Positions 29,268 to 46,531 of a stretch of 64,000 bases of DNA are shown here, piece by piece; within the stretch, counting starts at the first letter, position 1; each line of letters starts with the position of its first letter. This stretch comes from an uncultured Pelagibacteraceae bacterium. GTDB taxonomy: Bacteria > Pseudomonadota > Alphaproteobacteria > Pelagibacterales > Pelagibacteraceae. The notes beneath the pieces were generated by a model. The model did not search any database and was not told the origin of the DNA. It saw only the letters and a list, made by a program, of their open reading frames with translations. Location: contig CACHOG010000005.1 in assembly GCA_902581445.1 (NCBI GenBank), positions 1 to 64,000 of the forward strand, written 5' to 3'. A program made the translations under genes and the position numbers.

Positions 29268-30152
29268 TTATTTTACAAGAAAATTCATTTTTTTATTTGA
29301 CTGATTTAAATGAATTTTTTTATATGAACCAAAATTATCCCCGTCAATTTGAACAGGTATTAAATCATTTCCTTCAATAGTGATATTTTGAGAATAAGTA
29401 GTAATAACATTTTTGTTTTTACTTAAGTCGCCATTAAGGATTATTAAAAATATGGAATATAATAAATTGATTCTAGTCAAATCCTTAAATATATAAGTAA
29501 CTAATTTATCTTCAAAAATATTTGTTTTATTTATTTTATGATGGCCAGCGTAATATTTGGTATTTGAGGATAATATCCAGTCTGCTTGATAAAATTGTCC
29601 ATCAAAAGTAACATTTAATTTTTTATTATTCATAAATAAGAAATACTGAAAACCCTTGATGCCGAATATAATTTTACCAAGAATCTTTTTAATTTTTGAA
29701 TTAATTGAATGAACAATTTTTGCATCCCATCCTATACCAGCCATTAAAAAGAAATAACTTTCGTTAATTTTTACAAGATTAGAGGTTTTATAATTGTTTG
29801 AAATCAATACATTAACTATATCATCAACTTTTTTATTCATTGATAATTCAGCTTGAAGTAAATTTGCTGTACCAGCGGGTATATAACCTATGGCAAAATC
29901 GTGTTTAAAGTTAAAATCATTTTTAATTAGTTCATTAATTGCAAAAGATACCGATCCATCGCCACCAGCTATTATTAGTCGATCGTATTTTTTTTGATTA
30001 AAATTTCTAAAAATTTCTTTAGCTTGATTTGTTGTTTTTGTCTCAAAGTAGTCTACAGAATTATTTTCTTTTAACTTAGATAAAACTCTATTTATGAATT
30101 GTGATTTTCTTCCTGAAGAAGAGTTTAGATTATAAATTAAACAATATAACAT
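29268..30152 (-). CDS. diacylglycerol kinase-family lipid kinase (DAGK catalytic domain)
   Basis: NLNSSSGR...DRLIIAGGDGSVSFAINEL...AIGYIPAGTANLLQAEL...IPVQIDGDNFG. Confidence 0.88.
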   Translation of the reverse strand: MLYCLIYNLNSSSGRKSQFINRVLSKLKENNSVDYFETKTTNQAKEIFRNFNQKKYDRLIIAGGDGSVSFAINELIKNDFNFKHDFAIGYIPAGTANLLQAELSMNKKVDDIVNVLISNNYKTSNLVKINESYFFLMAGIGWDAKIVHSINSKIKKILGKIIFGIKGFQYFLFMNNKKLNVTFDGQFYQADWILSSNTKYYAGHHKINKTNIFEDKLVTYIFKDLTRINLLYSIFLIILNGDLSKNKNVITTYSQNITIEGNDLIPVQIDGDNFGSYKKIHLNQSNKKMNFLVK

Positions 30153-30170: not shown

Positions 30171-30189
30171 TTTTAACAAATTTGTAACA
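30171..30189 (+). promoter_or_regulatory. candidate Pho box upstream of the plcP-like gene
   Basis: TTTTAACA-AATT-TGTAACA; exact match to the motif upstream of pstS. Confidence 0.7.
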
Positions 30190-30218
30190 TTTGAATGAGA
30201 TAAGAATTACATGATTCG

Positions 30219-30237
30219 TGTTACAGTTGTGTTAAAA
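30219..30237 (-). promoter_or_regulatory. candidate Pho box oriented toward the DAG-kinase-like gene
   Basis: Minus strand TTTTAACA-CAAC-TGTAACA; exact match to the motif upstream of pstS. Confidence 0.65.
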
Positions 30238-30250
30238 AAAAGATTTTTAA

Positions 30251-31063
30251 ATGCCTAATATATTAAAATATAAGAGTATATTTATTTCTGATTTGCATTT
30301 AGGTACCAAAGGTTGTCAGGCGAATAAAATTTTAGAGTTTTTTAAAAATTCAAGATCTGAAAATCTTTATCTTGTAGGAGACATTATTGATATCTGGGCA
30401 ATGCAAAAAAGTTTTTTTTGGCCTCAAGAACATAATGATGTAATCCAAAAAATTTTAAGAAAAGCAAGACATGGGACTAAAGTGTTCTACATAATGGGTA
30501 ATCATGACGAGATGTTAAGGAAATTTATTCCAATGCATTTTGGTGATATTCATATGTTAAATAGAGTAATTCATGAAACAAATAATGGAAAAAAATATGT
30601 TGTTGTCCATGGTGATGCTTGGGATGGAGTAATGAAACATGCTAAATGGTTATCTAAAATTGGATCAATAGCATATAATTTATTGTTACAATTTAATGTA
30701 ATAATTAACTTTTTTAGAAGGTTGAGAGGAAAAGAATATTGGTCCCTTGCAAAATTTTTAAAGTATAAAGTCAAAAACGCAGTCAAATATATTGGTGAAT
30801 ATGAAAAAACAGTTTCAGATTATGCAAAAAGAAAAAAGTTTGATGGAATAATTTGTGGTCACATCCATCATGCTGAGGATAGAGATTTTAATGGTGTCAA
30901 TTATTTAAATTGTGGAGACTGGGTTGAATCTTGTACTGCATTAGCTGAAAATTATGATGGTAGTTTTGAAATATTATATTGGGATAAAATAAGAGAACAA
31001 TATTTAGACACTAAAGATATAATTAAACCTATTAAAACTGAAGACTTAAAAAAAGCTTCATAG
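30251..31063 (+). CDS. plcP: PlcP-like metallophosphoesterase (often annotated UDP-2,3-diacylglucosamine diphosphatase-like)
   Basis: ISDLHLGTKGC, LVGDIIDIW, MGNHDE, VVHGDAWD, GHIHHAED; next to glycosyltransferase and Pho genes. Confidence 0.8.
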   Translation: MPNILKYKSIFISDLHLGTKGCQANKILEFFKNSRSENLYLVGDIIDIWAMQKSFFWPQEHNDVIQKILRKARHGTKVFYIMGNHDEMLRKFIPMHFGDIHMLNRVIHETNNGKKYVVVHGDAWDGVMKHAKWLSKIGSIAYNLLLQFNVIINFFRRLRGKEYWSLAKFLKYKVKNAVKYIGEYEKTVSDYAKRKKFDGIICGHIHHAEDRDFNGVNYLNCGDWVESCTALAENYDGSFEILYWDKIREQYLDTKDIIKPIKTEDLKKAS

Positions 31064-31066
31064 TTA

Positions 31067-32074
31067 ATGAAAATTTTAATTGCTACAGATGCATATTTTC
31101 CACAAGTAAATGGTGTCGTAAGAACCTTGCATGAAACAGGTAATATCTTAAAAGAACAAGGTCATACTATAGAATATATTACTCCAAATTTATTTTTAAC
31201 CTTTCCGATGCCTAAATATAATGAAATAAGGTTATCTATAAATGTATGGCCAAGAGTTGGTAGTTTAATAAAGAAAATCAAACCTGATGCAATTCATATC
31301 GCTACCGAAGGTCCCATTGGGATTATGGCAAGAAGATATTGTTTAAAAAATAATCTAAAATTTACTACGAGTTTTCATACAAGGTTTGATAAATATCTTA
31401 AACTATACTTTCCAATTATACCTGCAAAATGGGCTGAAAAATTCTTAGCAAACTTTCATAATAAGGCTGAGAGAATTTTAGTAACAACAGAATCTATGAG
31501 AAAAGAATTAATCGATATAGGTATAGATAATAATAAAATGATTACTTGGACCAGAGGGGGAAATCACGGAGCTTTTAAAAAACCTCAAAAAATTAATTTA
31601 CCCCACAAAAGACCAATTTGGATTTATGTTGGAAGAGTTGCTGTTGAGAAAAATATAAGAGCTTTTTTAGAATGTGATTTAGAAGGTACAAAAATAATAA
31701 TAGGAAAAGGACCCGATTTAAAAAAATTAAAAGAGGAATTCCCTAGAGATATATTTTTAGGAGAAAAAACAAATGGTGTACTTGCATCATATTTTGCATC
31801 TTCTGATGTTTTTGTATTCCCTAGTAAAACAGATACATTTGGAATTGTAGTTACTGAGGCTTTAAATTGCGGTACGCCTGTTGCTGCGTATCCCGTTCCA
31901 GGTCCTAAAGATATTTTTGAAGGCTCCAAAATAGATTGTCTAGATAATGATCTTAAAGTTTCAGCTTATAAAGCTTTAAAAGTTAATCGAAATGATTGTC
32001 TTGAATTTGCAAAAAAATTCACATGGGAAGAAACAGCAAAAATATTTTTTAATAATATTTCACCAAATCGTTAG
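31067..32074 (+). CDS. GT4 glycosyltransferase, candidate diacylglycerol glycosyltransferase (Agt-like)
   Basis: MKILIATDAYFPQVNGVVRTL...WIYVGRVAVEKNI...DVFVFPSKTDTFGIVVTEAL; 3 nt after plcP stop. Confidence 0.85.
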   Translation: MKILIATDAYFPQVNGVVRTLHETGNILKEQGHTIEYITPNLFLTFPMPKYNEIRLSINVWPRVGSLIKKIKPDAIHIATEGPIGIMARRYCLKNNLKFTTSFHTRFDKYLKLYFPIIPAKWAEKFLANFHNKAERILVTTESMRKELIDIGIDNNKMITWTRGGNHGAFKKPQKINLPHKRPIWIYVGRVAVEKNIRAFLECDLEGTKIIIGKGPDLKKLKEEFPRDIFLGEKTNGVLASYFASSDVFVFPSKTDTFGIVVTEALNCGTPVAAYPVPGPKDIFEGSKIDCLDNDLKVSAYKALKVNRNDCLEFAKKFTWEETAKIFFNNISPNR

Positions 32075-32138
32075 CTAATTTTTCTTAATTTGTTTGCATT
32101 AAAAAGTGTAATGATGCAAAATTAACCTATCTAAATTT

Positions 32139-33284
32139 ATGGAATATTTCGTCATTCTACTTATAGTTGTTATAATTTATCTTCTATATCTACTTAATCA
32201 AAAAAAAAACAAACCAATAAATACCGCCACAATAATTAACAAAAGAGAAGAAAAAACAAAAAGAGTAATTATCGATGAGCTTGAGGATCAGTTTTTTGCA
32301 TTAAATAAATTTAACATAATTAAATATGCTAATCCAAGTGCATTAAAAAGATTTGGTAGTAGTTTAATTGATAAAAACATATCATCTGTAATTCGAAAAC
32401 CAGAATTAATAGAAAATATTGAAAAAGCTATAGTTGAAAATAAAACAAAAAATATTGATATTGAAATAGGCTTGCCATCATATCAATTTTATAAAATTTA
32501 TATTATTCCTGGTCCAACTCATTTATTTACTGAACCAGATTCTGTTGTGTTATTTTTAAAAGACTTTACTGAAATTACAAAAGCACAAAAATTTAAAACT
32601 GATTTTGTCGCCAATGTAAGCCATGAATTAAGAACACCCTTGATGGCTATCAAAGGATCTTTAGAAACTATTGAAGGTCCAGCGGCAGAAGACGATAAAG
32701 CAAAAAAAAAATTTATGAAAATAATGACTGATCAATCAAATAGAATGGAAAATTTAATTAATGATCTTTTAATACTCACAAGAATTGAATTAGAAGAACA
32801 CATAAGGCCAAACTCTTTAGTTAATATAAATGATCTTTTCAAAACAATCATCAGTAATTTTGAGATTGTTTTAAAAAAAAAGAAATTAAATATTAATTTA
32901 TCTCTCACAAATCCAACAATTGTTATTGGAGATGAAAAAAAATTACAAACTGTTTTTTCTAATCTTTTAGATAATGCAATTAAGTATTCAAAGGAAAATA
33001 AGTCTATTTTTATATCAAGTGAAATTAGTGATGGTAAATTGTTAGAAAAAAATTTTATGATCAGTGTTAAAGACGAAGGTGTTGGCATTCCTCAAAGATA
33101 TATTTCTAGAATTACAGAAAGATTTTTTAGAGTAGATCTTGAACAAAGTAATAAGGTTGGTGGAACTGGTTTAGGATTAGCTATTGTTAAACATATAGTT
33201 ACTCAACATCGTGGACACTATGAGATTCTAAGTGAGGAAAACCAAGGAACTGAAATTCAAATTTATTTACCAGCGAAAACTTAA
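32139..33284 (+). CDS. phoR: phosphate regulon sensor histidine kinase PhoR
   Basis: N-terminal TM, PAS-like region, FVANVSHELRTPLMAIKGSLETI, GTGLGLAIVKHIV; adjacent to pst. Confidence 0.9.
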   Translation: MEYFVILLIVVIIYLLYLLNQKKNKPINTATIINKREEKTKRVIIDELEDQFFALNKFNIIKYANPSALKRFGSSLIDKNISSVIRKPELIENIEKAIVENKTKNIDIEIGLPSYQFYKIYIIPGPTHLFTEPDSVVLFLKDFTEITKAQKFKTDFVANVSHELRTPLMAIKGSLETIEGPAAEDDKAKKKFMKIMTDQSNRMENLINDLLILTRIELEEHIRPNSLVNINDLFKTIISNFEIVLKKKKLNINLSLTNPTIVIGDEKKLQTVFSNLLDNAIKYSKENKSIFISSEISDGKLLEKNFMISVKDEGVGIPQRYISRITERFFRVDLEQSNKVGGTGLGLAIVKHIVTQHRGHYEILSEENQGTEIQIYLPAKT

Positions 33285-33374
33285 ATTTAAAAAGTATTAT
33301 ATTGTAATAGTTTTAGAAGGTTTTTTTAACAATTCTTTACTTGATTAATGTTAATCTTTTAATTAATTTTTTAT

Positions 33375-33983
33375 ATGGTTAAAATATTCAAAAATATTTT
33401 GATTTTTGCTTTTTTGTTAAGTTCTATAACAACAAGTGTTTTTTCTAAAGATATCACAACATTATTAAGAAATCAGCAACTTACAGTTTTTGATATTGGA
33501 ATTTTTAGATTAGAAGCAGATTTAAAAACCTCATATCCTTCTATAAAAGATCATTTAGAAGTTACTGAAGATGAATTTTATACAGACGTAGTTACCTCGT
33601 ATTCTAAAAATTCAATTGATTTAATTGTTTCTGTTCCTATGAATGAAAATCTCAAGAAGGAAAATTATTTTTCAGATTCTTTTAGATGTAAAAATATTTT
33701 TAATTCTGTAAGAGATTTTTTATTGAGGAATGAAAATTTGAGTAATTACAGATATACTATGGCTACAAGTTATTTAACCTCTATATTTTCAACCCCAAGT
33801 TCATGGCCAAGCTGGAGATATGATGAAGAAATTAGAGAAGAATTAGTAAACTTAGTAAAACTAGAAATAACTTTACGTCCAAGCAATGAACTAGCTCTTA
33901 ATGAACAGGTAAACCCTGTTTCATGTATTGGTGGCCTAGAAAGTGATATTGATCAGATAATTATATCAAAAAAATACAACTAA
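33375..33983 (+). CDS. hypothetical secreted protein between phoR and pstS
   Basis: Intact 202-aa ORF with N-terminal signal peptide (FKNILIFAFLLSSITTSVFS); two cysteines in the mature part. Confidence 0.85.
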   Translation: MVKIFKNILIFAFLLSSITTSVFSKDITTLLRNQQLTVFDIGIFRLEADLKTSYPSIKDHLEVTEDEFYTDVVTSYSKNSIDLIVSVPMNENLKKENYFSDSFRCKNIFNSVRDFLLRNENLSNYRYTMATSYLTSIFSTPSSWPSWRYDEEIREELVNLVKLEITLRPSNELALNEQVNPVSCIGGLESDIDQIIISKKYN

Positions 33984-33993
33984 AAAGTTACCT

Positions 33994-34023
33994 TTTTAAC
34001 AAAAGTGTAACAATTCTGTAATA
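33994..34023 (+). promoter_or_regulatory. candidate Pho box (three half-sites, 11-nt period) upstream of pstS
   Basis: TTTTAACA-AAAG-TGTAACA-ATTC-TGTAATA. Confidence 0.8.
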
Positions 34024-34092: not shown

Positions 34093-35124
34093 ATGAAAAA
34101 ACTAACTATAGTAATTGCTTCATTAGTTGCTTTATCAATAGCAACTGTTGCTCAAGCAAGAGATCAAATTAAGATAGTTGGTTCTTCTACGGTATTCCCT
34201 TACGCAACAGTTGTTGCTGAAAGATTTGGTGGTTCAGGATTTAAAACTCCTGTAATCGAATCTACTGGTACTGGTGGTGGAGCTAAACTATTCTGTGCTG
34301 GTGTAGGTGAACAACATCCTGATATTACAAATGCATCAAGAGCTATGAAAGATAAAGAAAAAGCTCTTTGTAAGAAAAATGGTGTAAATGAAATCGTTGA
34401 GATCGTAATTGGTAACGATGGTATTACATTAGCTTACAGCAAAGATGCAAAACCAGTAAACTTTACTAAAGAACATTTGTATTTAGCACTAGCTGCTCAT
34501 ACAGTTGTTGACGGTAAATTAGTTCCAAATATTTATAAAACTTGGGACCAAATTGACCCTAGCTTACCAAAACAAAAAATTTCAGTGATGATCCCACCAG
34601 GAACATCAGGAACTAGAGATGCTTGGAATTCTTTAGTTATGAAAAAAGGTATGACCAAAGAAGCTAAAGCTCTTTATAAAGCTGGTTTTGAAGCTGGAAA
34701 TAAAAAATACAAAAAACCTCAAAAACTTTACAGAGAAGATGGTGCTGCTATTGAAGTTGGAGAAAATGATAGTTTAATCATCCAAAAGTTAACTCAAGAT
34801 AAAGATATGTTTGGTTTCTTTGGTTTCAGTTATTTCTTAGCTGCAAAAGATAAATTGCAAGCAGCAAGTATTGATGGTGGACAACCATCATTGAAGTCTA
34901 TTCAAGACTACAGTTATGCTGTTGCTAGACCTTTATTCTTCTACGTGAAAAAAGCTCACGTTGGAGTAATTCCAGGTTTACATGAGTTTGTGAAAGAATT
35001 CACAACGAAGAAAGCTATTGGAAAAGGTGGTTACCTAGCAGACATTGGTTTAGTGCCATTAGACTCTAAGTTGTATAAAACAACTAGAACTAATGCTACC
35101 AAACTAGTTGCTATGGGTAATTAA
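34093..35124 (+). CDS. pstS: phosphate ABC transporter substrate-binding protein
   Basis: Signal peptide; IKIVGSSTVFPYATVVAERFG, STGTGGGAKLFCAGVG, PPGTSGTRDAW. Confidence 0.97.
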   Translation: MKKLTIVIASLVALSIATVAQARDQIKIVGSSTVFPYATVVAERFGGSGFKTPVIESTGTGGGAKLFCAGVGEQHPDITNASRAMKDKEKALCKKNGVNEIVEIVIGNDGITLAYSKDAKPVNFTKEHLYLALAAHTVVDGKLVPNIYKTWDQIDPSLPKQKISVMIPPGTSGTRDAWNSLVMKKGMTKEAKALYKAGFEAGNKKYKKPQKLYREDGAAIEVGENDSLIIQKLTQDKDMFGFFGFSYFLAAKDKLQAASIDGGQPSLKSIQDYSYAVARPLFFYVKKAHVGVIPGLHEFVKEFTTKKAIGKGGYLADIGLVPLDSKLYKTTRTNATKLVAMGN

Positions 35125-35150
35125 TTATTCCTCAGTTAACAAATGATTAA

Positions 35151-35182
35151 AAAAGGGGGTCTTTTTTAGACCCCTTTTTTTT
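35151..35182 (+). terminator. rho-independent terminator/attenuator between pstS and pstC
   Basis: AAAAGGGGGTCT-T-tract loop-AGACCCCTTTTTTTT. Confidence 0.9.
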
Positions 35183-35217
35183 AAATTAAGAGTACAGTCC
35201 TCAATAAAGGAGATTCT

Positions 35218-36603
35218 TTGAACTTAATATTATTTATATTTATTGTTCTTCTAGGTTTCACAAGTTATTATTTTGGACGCAAAAAAGCATATACAATTCA
35301 ATCTACAAAAAAAAGATTAACTGCATTACCACAATTTTATGGTTATTATCTTGCAATTTGGTGTGCAATACCAGCCTTTATAATTTTTTCTTTATGGGCA
35401 ATTTTTGAGCCCACAATTGTAAAACTATTAATATTAAGTGATTATTCAAATCAAGGTTATCTTGATGATGAATTAAATTTAATATACGAAAAGACAAAAG
35501 CATTATCTCGAGGTCAATTCACCGGAGAAATTACACCTTTCATTGATGCTTCTGCTGAAAAATATTTAAGTCTTCGATCAATAGCACAAAGTTCAAAAGT
35601 TGTTATAGTATTATCTGCAATTATTGCCTCTGTTGCTTATGCGTATAAAAGAATTTCATCTAATTCTAGAACAAGAGAACCAGTTGAAAAATTTTTGAAC
35701 GCAGTTTTATTTACAGCTTCTTTAGCTGCAATATTAACTACTGTTGGAATAGTTTTCTCACTTATATTTCAAACTATAGATTTTTTTAAAGTAATTCCAT
35801 TATTTGATTTTGTCTTTGGAACTCACTGGTATCCAGCAAAAGCTTTTGTTAGAGATTCTTCTGAGGCTTTAGATCCGACAATGTATTCAGATACTTTTGG
35901 AGCAGTTCCTATTTTTGCAGGTACTTTTTTTATTGCATTTATTGCTATGTGTGTTGCTATACCAATTGGATTAATGAGTGGAATTTATTTAGCTGAATAT
36001 GCATCAGCTAAAGTTAGACAATATGCAAAACCATTAATTGAAATTTTAGCTGGTATACCAACAGTTGTTTATGGTTTTTTTGCTGCCCTAACTGTTGGCC
36101 CATTTTTAAAAGAATTAGGAACCTCAATGGGTCTCGAAGTTTCAGCTGAAAGTGCTTTAGCAGCAGGAGGGGTAATGGGCATTATGATCATACCATTTAT
36201 TTCAAGTTTAAGTGACGATGTAATTACAAGTGTACCTCAAAGTTTAAGAGATGGAAGTTATGCTATGGGAGCAACTAAATCAGAAACAATCAAGAGAGTT
36301 ATTTTTCCTGCAGCATTGCCGGGGATAGTTGGATCTATTTTGCTTGGTGTTTCAAGAGCTATTGGAGAAACAATGATAGTTGTTATGGCCTCTGGTTTAG
36401 CTGCTAATTTAACTTTAAATCCATTAGAATCTACTTCAACAATTACAGCTCAAATTGTAGTTATTCTAATTGGTGACCAAGCTTTTGGTGACCCAAAAAC
36501 GCAAGCTGCTTTTGCTTTAGGTATGTCATTATTTTTAGTAACGCTTTGTTTAAACATTGTGGCCTTAAGAGTTGTTAAAAAATATAGAGAGAAATATGAA
36601 TAA
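35218..36603 (+). CDS. pstC: phosphate ABC transporter permease PstC (extended N-terminus; TTG start as listed, not verified)
   Basis: IEILAGIPTVVYGFFAAL; REPS/ATKSETIKRVIFPAALPGIVGSILLGVSRAIGETMIV. Confidence 0.95.
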   Translation: MNLILFIFIVLLGFTSYYFGRKKAYTIQSTKKRLTALPQFYGYYLAIWCAIPAFIIFSLWAIFEPTIVKLLILSDYSNQGYLDDELNLIYEKTKALSRGQFTGEITPFIDASAEKYLSLRSIAQSSKVVIVLSAIIASVAYAYKRISSNSRTREPVEKFLNAVLFTASLAAILTTVGIVFSLIFQTIDFFKVIPLFDFVFGTHWYPAKAFVRDSSEALDPTMYSDTFGAVPIFAGTFFIAFIAMCVAIPIGLMSGIYLAEYASAKVRQYAKPLIEILAGIPTVVYGFFAALTVGPFLKELGTSMGLEVSAESALAAGGVMGIMIIPFISSLSDDVITSVPQSLRDGSYAMGATKSETIKRVIFPAALPGIVGSILLGVSRAIGETMIVVMASGLAANLTLNPLESTSTITAQIVVILIGDQAFGDPKTQAAFALGMSLFLVTLCLNIVALRVVKKYREKYE

Positions 36604-37864
36604 AAATAAAGAACAATTATTAAATAAAAGATACAAGGCTGAGCAGAGATTTCGCTTATACGGTCAAAGTGCAATTTTTATGGCACTTTTATTTTTAACA
36701 ATTTTTATTTTCAAAATTTTTTCAACTGGCTATTCAGCTTTTCAAAAAACTTGGCTCATTGTTCCAGTAACTTTTGATCCCGAACTAATGATGTTAGAAC
36801 AAAACCCTTCTAAAGAAGATATACAAGATGCCGATTATTACGATATAGCATTAAAATCAATGGCTGATTTAGATCTAAATGCCAATGAGGATCAAGAAAA
36901 TGAATTGAAGAGAATGGTGTCTTATTTCTTCGAAAAAGAAATTAAAAATGAGCTTTTAAATGACCCTAATTTAATAGGAAAAACAAAAGAAGTTTATCTA
37001 ACTGCTTCAGATGATTTAGACCAAGTCTTTAAAGGAAATTATCCAAGAGATTTACCTGAAGACCAAAGAAGAGTAAGCGATTATCAATTAAAAATTTTTG
37101 ATCAACTTGTTGTAAATGGTAAGGTTGAAAGTAAATTTAATATTAGTTTTTTTACAAATGCAGACTCAAGAGAAGCTGAACTAGCTGGTATAGCTAGTTC
37201 ATTTATGGGCTCAATTTTTTCTATACTTGTTTGTTTAATGATAGCTTTTCCTGTTGCGGTTCTAGCTGCAATCTATCTTGAAGAATTTGCCCCTAAAAAT
37301 AGATTTACTGATTTTATTGAAGTAAATATAAATAACTTAGCAGCAGTTCCATCTATAGTTTTTGGTCTATTAGGGTTAGGAGTTTTATTGGCTATATTTC
37401 AATTACCAAGATCTACACCATTAGTTGGAGGTATCACTTTGTCCTTAATGACCTTACCAACAATAATTATAGCTGCTAGAGCATCATTAAAAGCGGTTCC
37501 ACCAAGTATAAGAGAGGCAGCACTTGCTATGGGAGCAAGTCGAATGCAAACCACAATGCATCATACAGTTCCTCTTTCTATGCCTGGTACGTTATCAGGA
37601 ACAATAATTGGTTTAGCTCAAGCTTTAGGAGAAACCGCACCCCTCATTTTAATTGGAATGGTTGCTTTTGTTAACACGATACCTGGATCACCTATGGATC
37701 CTGCTGCAAGTTTACCAGTTCAAATTTATATTTGGGCTGAAAGTGCTGAAAGGGGATTTGTAGAAAAAGTCTCGGCGTGTATAATGGTCTTACTTGGTTT
37801 TTTAATAACAATGAATTTATTTGCTCAAATAATTAGACATAAGTTTGAAAAAAAATGGAGTTAA
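36596..37864 (+). CDS. pstA: phosphate ABC transporter permease PstA (extended periplasmic segment)
   Basis: [57 protein letters not shown]; start at MNKNKEQ. Confidence 0.95.
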
Positions 37865-37865
37865 A

Positions 37866-38621
37866 ATGATAAAGATTAAAGCAAAAGATGTTGATGTTTT
37901 TTATGGAAAAAAACAAGCGCTCTTTAATATAAGTTTAGATATTGAGGAAAAACAAGTAACAGCATTAATTGGTCCATCTGGTTGTGGTAAATCAACTTTC
38001 CTAAGATGTCTTAATAGAATGAATGATGTAATTGATATTTGTAGTGTTAAAGGAGAAATTTTAATTAATGACTTTAATATCAATGATAAAAGTTGTGATG
38101 TAGTAAGACTAAGAGAAAAAATTGGTATGGTTTTTCAAAAACCTAATCCTTTTCCAAAAACTTTATATGAAAATGTATCTTACGGTCCAACAATTCATGG
38201 TATGGCTCAATCAAAACAAGAAATGGATGAAATTGTTGAAACTAGTTTGAAAAAGGCTGCACTATGGGAAGAAGTAAAAGATAGATTACATGAACCTGGA
38301 ACTGGATTATCTGGAGGACAACAGCAAAGACTTTGTATTGCTAGAGCGATTTCTGTAAGACCAGAAGTTATATTAATGGATGAGCCTTGTTCAGCATTAG
38401 ATCCTATAGCAACAGCGCAAATTGAAGAATTGATTGACGAGTTAAAAAAAGAGCACACAATAATAATTGTAACTCATTCTATGGCTCAAGCAGCACGTGT
38501 TTCTCAAAATACAGGTTTTTTTCATTTAGGACAATTGATTGAACATGGATCTACTGATAAAATATTTAAGAATCCTGATAATAAAAAAACGCAAGATTAT
38601 ATAACAGGGAGGTTTGGATAA
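37866..38621 (+). CDS. pstB: phosphate ABC transporter ATP-binding protein
   Basis: [46 protein letters not shown]. Confidence 0.98.
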
Positions 38622-39328
38622 TGTCTGAAGCACCACATACAGTTAAATCTTACGAAGAAGAACTAAAAAATCTGAATGCTAATATAGTTAAGATGGGAAG
38701 TGCATGTGAGGATGCTTTAGGTAAAGCAATTCAAGCCATTACAACAAGAAATAGTGATATTGCTGAAAATGTAATTCAAGATGATGAAAAAATAGATAAA
38801 TATGAAGCCTTAATTGAACAACAAGTTGTAAATTTAATTGCTTTAAGACAACCTATGGCAATTGATTTAAGGGAGACAGTAACGGCTTTGAAAATGTCTT
38901 CAGATTTAGAAAGAATAGGTGATTTAGCAAAAAATATATCCAAGAGAACACTTTTGCTTAATGAAAATCTTCCAAAGAATTTGGTAGATTCACTAAATAG
39001 AGTATCTACCAATGTTCAAAAACAATTAAAATCAACATTAGACGCTTATCTAGAAAGATCTGCGCCAATAGCAGTAAATGTTTGGGAAGGTGATGAGCAA
39101 ATAGATGATCTAACAAATCTTTGTATGCAAGAAGTTATAAAATATCTTAAAGACAATGAAAAAAATTTAGAGGATGGAACTCACTTGTTGTTTGTGACCA
39201 AAAACGTTGAGCGTATTGGTGATCATACTACAAATGTTGCAGAACAAATTTATTACTTAGTTAAAGGTGAATATTTAGAAGGTGACAGACCAAAGGGCAC
39301 CGAGCCAATTGTAACAGGAGAAAAATGA
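38621..39328 (+). CDS. phoU: phosphate transport system regulator PhoU
   Basis: SSDLERIGDLAKNI and TKNVERIGDHTTNVAEQIYYLV. Confidence 0.97.
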   Translation: MSEAPHTVKSYEEELKNLNANIVKMGSACEDALGKAIQAITTRNSDIAENVIQDDEKIDKYEALIEQQVVNLIALRQPMAIDLRETVTALKMSSDLERIGDLAKNISKRTLLLNENLPKNLVDSLNRVSTNVQKQLKSTLDAYLERSAPIAVNVWEGDEQIDDLTNLCMQEVIKYLKDNEKNLEDGTHLLFVTKNVERIGDHTTNVAEQIYYLVKGEYLEGDRPKGTEPIVTGEK

Positions 39329-39331
39329 TTT

Positions 39332-40015
39332 ATGTCAGCTCATGTTTTCATAGCTGAAGATGAAGCATCAATTGTTAGTTTGTTAAAGTACAATCTTGAA
39401 AAAGAAGGTTATAAAGTCAGTCATTCAGAAAATGGAGAAGATGCTCTTAAACAAATAAAATCAAAACAGCCAGATTTAATATTAATGGATTGGATGTTAC
39501 CAGAATTATCTGGTGTTGAAATTTGTAAAAACTTAAAAAAAGATAATAAGTTTAATGATATTCCTGTCATTATGTTAACTGCAAAAGGGGAGGAAGAAGA
39601 CAAATTAAAAGCATTTGATACAGGTGCAGATGATTATGTAACTAAACCTTTTAGTCAAAAAGAATTGAATGCTAGAATAAAATCTTTATTGAGAAGATCT
39701 AAACCTCAATCATCATCAGACATTGTAGAATTTACTGATTTAAAAATAGATCGGATTACAAAAAGAGTTTATAGAAAAGATAAAGAAATTACTTTGGGTC
39801 CAACTGAATTTAAACTCTTAGATTTTTTTATCAAAAATCCAAAAAGAGTTTATTCAAGAGAACAACTTCTAAATAATGTTTGGGGGGAAGATATATATGT
39901 TGAGTCTAGAACAGTAGATGTTCATATTAGAAGATTAAGACAAGCAATTAACATACAAAATACAAAACCTTTAATTAGAACAGTGAGATCAGCTGGTTAT
40001 TCTTTAGAATCTTGA
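39332..40015 (+). CDS. phoB: phosphate regulon response regulator PhoB
   Basis: REC (LILMDWMLPELSG, MLTAKGEE, GADDYVTKPFS) plus OmpR-type wHTH (VDVHIRRLRQAI). Confidence 0.96.
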   Translation: MSAHVFIAEDEASIVSLLKYNLEKEGYKVSHSENGEDALKQIKSKQPDLILMDWMLPELSGVEICKNLKKDNKFNDIPVIMLTAKGEEEDKLKAFDTGADDYVTKPFSQKELNARIKSLLRRSKPQSSSDIVEFTDLKIDRITKRVYRKDKEITLGPTEFKLLDFFIKNPKRVYSREQLLNNVWGEDIYVESRTVDVHIRRLRQAINIQNTKPLIRTVRSAGYSLES

Positions 40016-46436: not shown

Positions 46437-46531
46437 TTTAATCCTTTTTATTTCTTATATTTAAGTTTTGTTAAGATTTTATTAAATTATCATCTAGTAA
46501 AGAATATAAATAGTGATACAACTAAGAATAT

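Follow-up and report, generated by a model that had tools for sequence, protein, structure and literature searches.

The 19-nt motif TTTTAACA-N4-TGTAACA found in the phosphate island of a SAR11 genome is, with high confidence, the Pho box of these bacteria, through which PhoB would switch on phosphate uptake and lipid remodelling under phosphate starvation. It is very probably an ordinary predicted PhoB docking site with the half-site TGTAACA, not a new type of switch. The sequence-only reading had proposed a Pho box from a PhoB-like period and a tandem half-site layout, and this interpretation held up: a matrix of E. coli PhoB sites placed the boxes at ranks 1–4 in the window (the whole 64,000-nucleotide stretch of DNA that was analysed), the motif lies before phosphate genes in related genomes and recurs in promoters outside its definition, and a phoB gene is located 5 kb away from the boxes.

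Predicted Pho boxes and genes of the phosphate island

The source genome is a SAR11 genome of the Pelagibacter type. The best relatives of its PstS are 99–100% identical and come from Pelagibacteraceae/Pelagibacterales single-cell genomes, some of them named "SAG-MED"; no relatives of the island PstS were found on viral contigs. The gene order of the island is dagK (− strand), plcP-agt, phoR, a gene for a 202-aa protein, pstSCAB, phoU, phoB, ppk and ppx. The features discussed below are as follows:

29268–30152, −, dagK, YegS/DAGK-type lipid kinase (DAGK_cat, 84 bits), presumed target
30171–30189, +, predicted Pho box of plcP-agt, exact match; half-sites TTTAACA (30172–30178) and TGTAACA (30183–30189)
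30199–30204, +, GATAAG, candidate −10 element of plcP located 9 nt downstream of the box, based on comparing the spacing with that at E. coli pstS, phoA and phoB
30219–30237, −, predicted Pho box toward the divergent lipid kinase gene dagK, exact match, 27.1 bits
30251–32074, +, plcP-like metallophosphoesterase (Metallophos) and agt-like glycosyltransferase (Glyco_transf_4/Glycos_transf_1), presumed target operon
32139–33284, +, phoR (HisKA, HATPase_c), presumed sensor kinase
33994–34023, +, predicted Pho box of pstS, exact match, three half-sites in 11-nt phase: TTTAACA (33995–34001), TGTAACA (34006–34012) and TGTAATA (34017–34023)
34093–39328, +, pstS, pstC, pstA, pstB and phoU (ORFs), presumed target operon, followed by phoB
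39332–40015, +, phoB (TIGR02154, 331.9 bits, cut-off 296.2), presumed binding protein
46469–46487, −, weaker candidate Pho box ATTTAATAAAATCTTAACA, 14.2 bits in the window with the SAR11 matrix

While pstS, pstC and phoU were identified by Pfam/NCBIfam, pstA and pstB were named from sequence and gene order. The best NCBIfam match of phoR was TIGR02966 (phoR_proteo), with 283.9 bits, below the cut-off of 334.2. The phoB product is a canonical PhoB. Its RTVDVHIRRLR helix and residues T217, R219 and Y223 are the same as in E. coli PhoB, where these residues contact the DNA in the complex of structure 1GXP. The 202-aa protein (33375–33983), encoded between phoR and pstS in type-A islands, had no Pfam/NCBIfam match; a similar ORF was seen upstream of pstS in another genus.

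Three perfect copies of the motif are present in the genome (1,135,627 bases in 18 contigs), all in the phosphate island and at the places originally reported, 33994–34012 (+), 30171–30189 (+) and 30219–30237 (−), each matching at 15 of 15 fixed positions. Measured between half-sites of the form T(G/T)TAACA, the repeat has a period of 11 nt in direct orientation, as had been described, and the third pstS half-site, TGTAATA, indeed follows 11 nt beyond the second. The pstS box thus contains two overlapping pairs, scoring 25.8 and 17.8 bits with the SAR11 matrix, and its layout is conserved in the pstS promoters of relatives. The box of plcP-agt is also present in relatives, but the plcP sites are degenerate in many of those that have pstS; at the dagK box, the second half-site is retained in diverged relatives. 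The sequence AACTAAAAAGTTA at 33979–33991 overlaps the stop codon of the gene upstream of pstS. In nearly every type-A or type-B island that was read, it occurs a few bases ahead of the first half-site of pstS.

The weaker box at 46469–46487 precedes a 73-aa ORF and genes for an arsC-like protein (LMWPc) and an aquaporin (MIP), and the E. coli ChIP-seq matrix puts it only at rank 22. Together, this box and the dagK box are predicted additions to the regulon.

Candidate −10 elements were compared by their distance from the last half-site. The best mean distance to a −10-like hexamer was 9 nt, with a small advantage over 12 nt. At 9 nt, a clear hexamer was observed at plcP, at the arsC-like operon (TATAAG) and at the type-B phoR (GATAAT), but not at pstS or dagK. 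A strict spacing between box and core promoter is supported by structural models (PMC10294691).

In the model that we propose, phosphate starvation would cause PhoR to phosphorylate PhoB, which would then bind head-to-tail to tandem 7-nt half-sites, T(G/T)TAA(C/T)A, at 11-nt spacing. The box would replace the −35 element, with the −10-like hexamer 9 nt past the last half-site at several promoters, comparable to PhoB promoters in E. coli. The genes switched on would be pstSCAB-phoU-phoB for phosphate uptake and, for lipid remodelling, plcP-agt together with the lipid kinase gene dagK; the weaker site would serve the arsC-like/aquaporin operon. The sites, their phase and recurrence, the match to the E. 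coli matrix and the PhoB-type helix are read from the sequence, whereas PhoB binding, activation as opposed to repression, and the transcription starts are inferred.

Recurrence in related genomes

Across 151 genomes of the genus, there were 66 exact motif matches versus 6 for a backward control. The motif was carried by 40 of the 77 genomes with pstS or plcP and by 1 of the 74 without; the Fisher value of 7e-14 for this comparison overstates independence, because the genomes are related (one genus). In 25 of the 29 relatives' loci that were read, the exact match was located before pstS, plcP or dagK; in the others, it preceded a diverged phoR (L030 and L036), lay between pstS and pstC (L023) or was found elsewhere (L022). 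A second, diverged island type, in which PstS is 63–67% identical, has three half-sites ahead of pstS and a half-site pair ahead of pstC; some of these genomes also have a pair ahead of phoR.

The lone carrier without pstS or plcP, G119, retains the box and the first codons of phoR, as if the phosphate island had been lost at this point. The type-B phoR box and first codons adjoin the tail of a manC-like gene in this genome (L186:1634) as well as in G029 (L122:3021) and G143 (L134:2696), as though a phosphate island had disappeared from this place or been exchanged there. Another sequence, TGTAACAAAGCTGTAACA, was present in many relatives and was set aside, as it sits inside an apparent manC coding sequence. 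Perfect TGTAACA-N4-TGTAACA pairs, common to many relatives, were seen in the manC-like coding sequence at L188–L216; a TGTAACA pair within the manC-like gene is probably a coding coincidence, although E. coli does have PhoB sites inside genes.

A SAR11 matrix, trained on the pst, plcP, dagK and phoR promoters, also scored well at promoters outside its training set: a phnX-like gene of the HAD family, with three half-sites in phase (14.2–19.5 bits), an HD-domain gene (21.3–23.1 bits), and the 73-aa/arsC-like/aquaporin operon, where the box upstream of the orthologous 73-aa ORF scored 14.0–23.4 bits in 20 relatives. Reversed sequence (195 kb) gave a top score of 17.9, followed by 11.7. The designations phnX and arsC-like were given in this analysis; the Pfam assignments are HAD_2 and LMWPc. 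Candidate boxes before phnG, ugpB and phnC reached only about 11–12 bits, a level close to the null, and we make no claim for them. The phnJ gene was present in 9 of 300 genus genomes. In the regions read at L330–L339, the phosphate island is followed downstream by a phn operon that includes the phnX-like and HD-domain genes, both of which have strong predicted Pho boxes.

When 190 genomes of the class were scanned blind, seven non-repeat matches were obtained, three of which were at pstS or pstC promoters, these genes being recognised by reading translations, not by search. In two other alphaproteobacterial families, TGTAACA pairs occur before pstS/pstC. A match with twelve identical copies in one class genome, G471, was set aside as a repeat. 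The copies (TGTAACAAAAGTGTAACA; L297, L304 and L306–L315) follow poly-G runs near contig ends where they were read, and represent either a repeat or an assembly artefact.

Agreement with E. coli PhoB sites and alternative explanations

For comparison with a known PhoB, 59 sites mapped by ChIP-seq for E. coli PhoB (PMC10294691) were made into a matrix that had no SAR11 input. Among the 127,966 positions of the window, it ranked the pstS pairs 1 and 4, plcP 2 and dagK 3. These four sites ranked 1, 2, 3 and 5 when every E. coli TGTAA site was removed from the matrix, 1–4 with a matrix from 15 strong E. coli sites, and 1, 3, 5 and 6 with the background matched to the AT-rich window, and none of 200 column-permuted matrices placed any of them in the top 10. 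In 68 islands, 150 of the 204 top matches fell within five 150-bp promoter strips, compared to 3.5 expected by area. All matrix ranks refer to the 64-kb window; genome-wide, patterns were counted. A smaller E. coli matrix, made from 12 sites around CTGTCAT, had ranked the sites at 30–495 and seemed to miss them, an outcome reversed with the 59 ChIP-seq sites. This small matrix was partly noisy, containing weak sites chosen by similarity alone, and was not used as support. The expectation that standard Pho-box matrices could miss the motif was therefore not upheld, the 12-site matrix being the only one that did.

The sequence-only reading had also described the half-site as different from the E. 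coli CTGTCAT and the motif as lineage-specific. The former is formally right, as 4–7 of 14 letters differ from the strict CTGTCAT-N4-CTGTCAT consensus, but it is misleading. Many mapped E. coli PhoB sites also deviate from this consensus, which is thus not a defining feature of PhoB binding. The ChIP-seq sites include TGTAACCCGTATGTAACA (mglB) and TGTAATAGTTCTGTAACG (yibT) (PMC10294691), and E. coli PhoB also occupies TGTAACA/TGTAATA sites in this set. Conversely, two SAR11 loci (L175 and L177) have TGTCATA at the pstS-promoter position of an orthologous TGTAACA or TGTAATA, a third (L181) has TGTCATA and TTTCATA in the same phase, and TGTCATA-AATT-TGTAACA-AAAA-TGTAACA stands upstream of pstS in an alphaproteobacterium from a different family. 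Because E. coli, SAR11 and other-family sites mix TGTCATA with TGTAACA/TGTAATA, the SAR11 motif appears from these sites to belong to one family with the E. coli boxes, with a shifted preference; together with the TGTAACA pairs in the two other families, this leaves lineage specificity mostly unsupported. Half-site position 4 is C in 82 of 118 E. coli half-sites (69%) and A in the SAR11 sites, the latter being biased, since the site collection demanded A there.

Chance recurrence in AT-rich DNA, brought to light by looking for repeats, would fit the counts of inexact copies. No single-mismatch versions of the motif were found in the 1,135,627 bases (18 contigs) of the genome, and 18 two-mismatch versions were, so that with up to two mismatches the motif was no commoner (21) than its backward control (18); only the exact copies stand out. 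Enrichment in the window with up to three mismatches was mild (22 versus 14.3). A looser pair, TKTAAYA-N4-YKTAAYA, occurred 8 times versus 7 for its backward control in the whole genome; of the eight, five are in the window, namely the three boxes, the second pair at pstS, and 46469 on the − strand. Chance does not fit the exact copies, which outnumber their controls elevenfold in the 151 genomes and cluster before the same genes. With about 0.04 exact motifs expected per genome, the Poisson probability of at least three is about 1e-5, a value to be read with the caveat that the pattern was picked after three copies had been seen. Furthermore, the independent E. coli matrix finds the sites; chance is already contradicted, and its probability is close to nil.

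It is also quite improbable that the main protein binding the tandem half-sites is a different response regulator of the OmpR family that controls the phosphate genes. Direct repeats are frequent targets of OmpR-family proteins, and close relatives of PhoB cannot be told apart by comparing matrices; however, the matrix that matched is PhoB-specific, PhoB is encoded in the island, and genomes with the motif are almost only pstS/plcP carriers. Less probable still is that the repeats are kept only as part of the core promoter (a −35 or an AT-rich UP-like element), with no regulator involved. They do lie in promoter regions near −10-like hexamers, but this would not account for the fixed G and C, the strict 11-nt phase and the direct orientation in otherwise unrelated promoters, nor for the agreement with the PhoB matrix.

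Known Pho boxes and the SAR11 phosphate-starvation regulon

Like the SAR11 motif, the E. coli Pho box consists of at least two direct 7-nt half-sites, T-G-T-[A/C]-A-[T/C]-A, in 11-nt phase (PMC10294691). It is likewise found before pstS. In E. coli, the −10 hexamers of pstS, phoA and phoB lie 9 nt after the box. The first half-site of type-A SAR11 promoters, by contrast, is usually TTTAACA. The rhizobial PHO box (CTGTCAT repeats with a 4-nt AT-rich spacer; PMC3131613) resembles the SAR11 box in layout and bacterial class and differs by its stated consensus, CTGTCAT versus TGTAACA. Sebastian et al. (PMC4796936) predicted Pho boxes and PhoB control of plcP in the plcP clusters of marine bacteria and demonstrated a role of PlcP in lipid remodelling; the SAR11 island has the same type of gene cluster. 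SAR11 strain HTCC7211 has a plcP–glycosyltransferase operon arranged as here (PMC8231724). A SAR11 box sequence was not found in the passages of open literature that were read, and one may have been published earlier.

There is perhaps an even chance that AT-rich marine Alphaproteobacteria have shifted the PhoB half-site to TGTAACA, with A at position 4, and that the SAR11 regulon adds dagK and the arsC-like/aquaporin operon, the latter possibly handling arsenate imported by Pst. The SAR11 motif is ordinary in kind and useful in detail. The broad E. coli ChIP-seq matrix also works in AT-rich SAR11, and the main SAR11 sites can therefore be found without a special matrix. SAR11 is an abundant ocean bacterium that is genetically hard to manipulate, and a reliable operator sequence is useful for this reason. 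With it, the SAR11 phosphate-starvation regulon would be readable from single-cell genomes and metagenomes. From the sites, lipid remodelling, the lipid kinase and the arsC-like operon are predicted to be under PhoB control.
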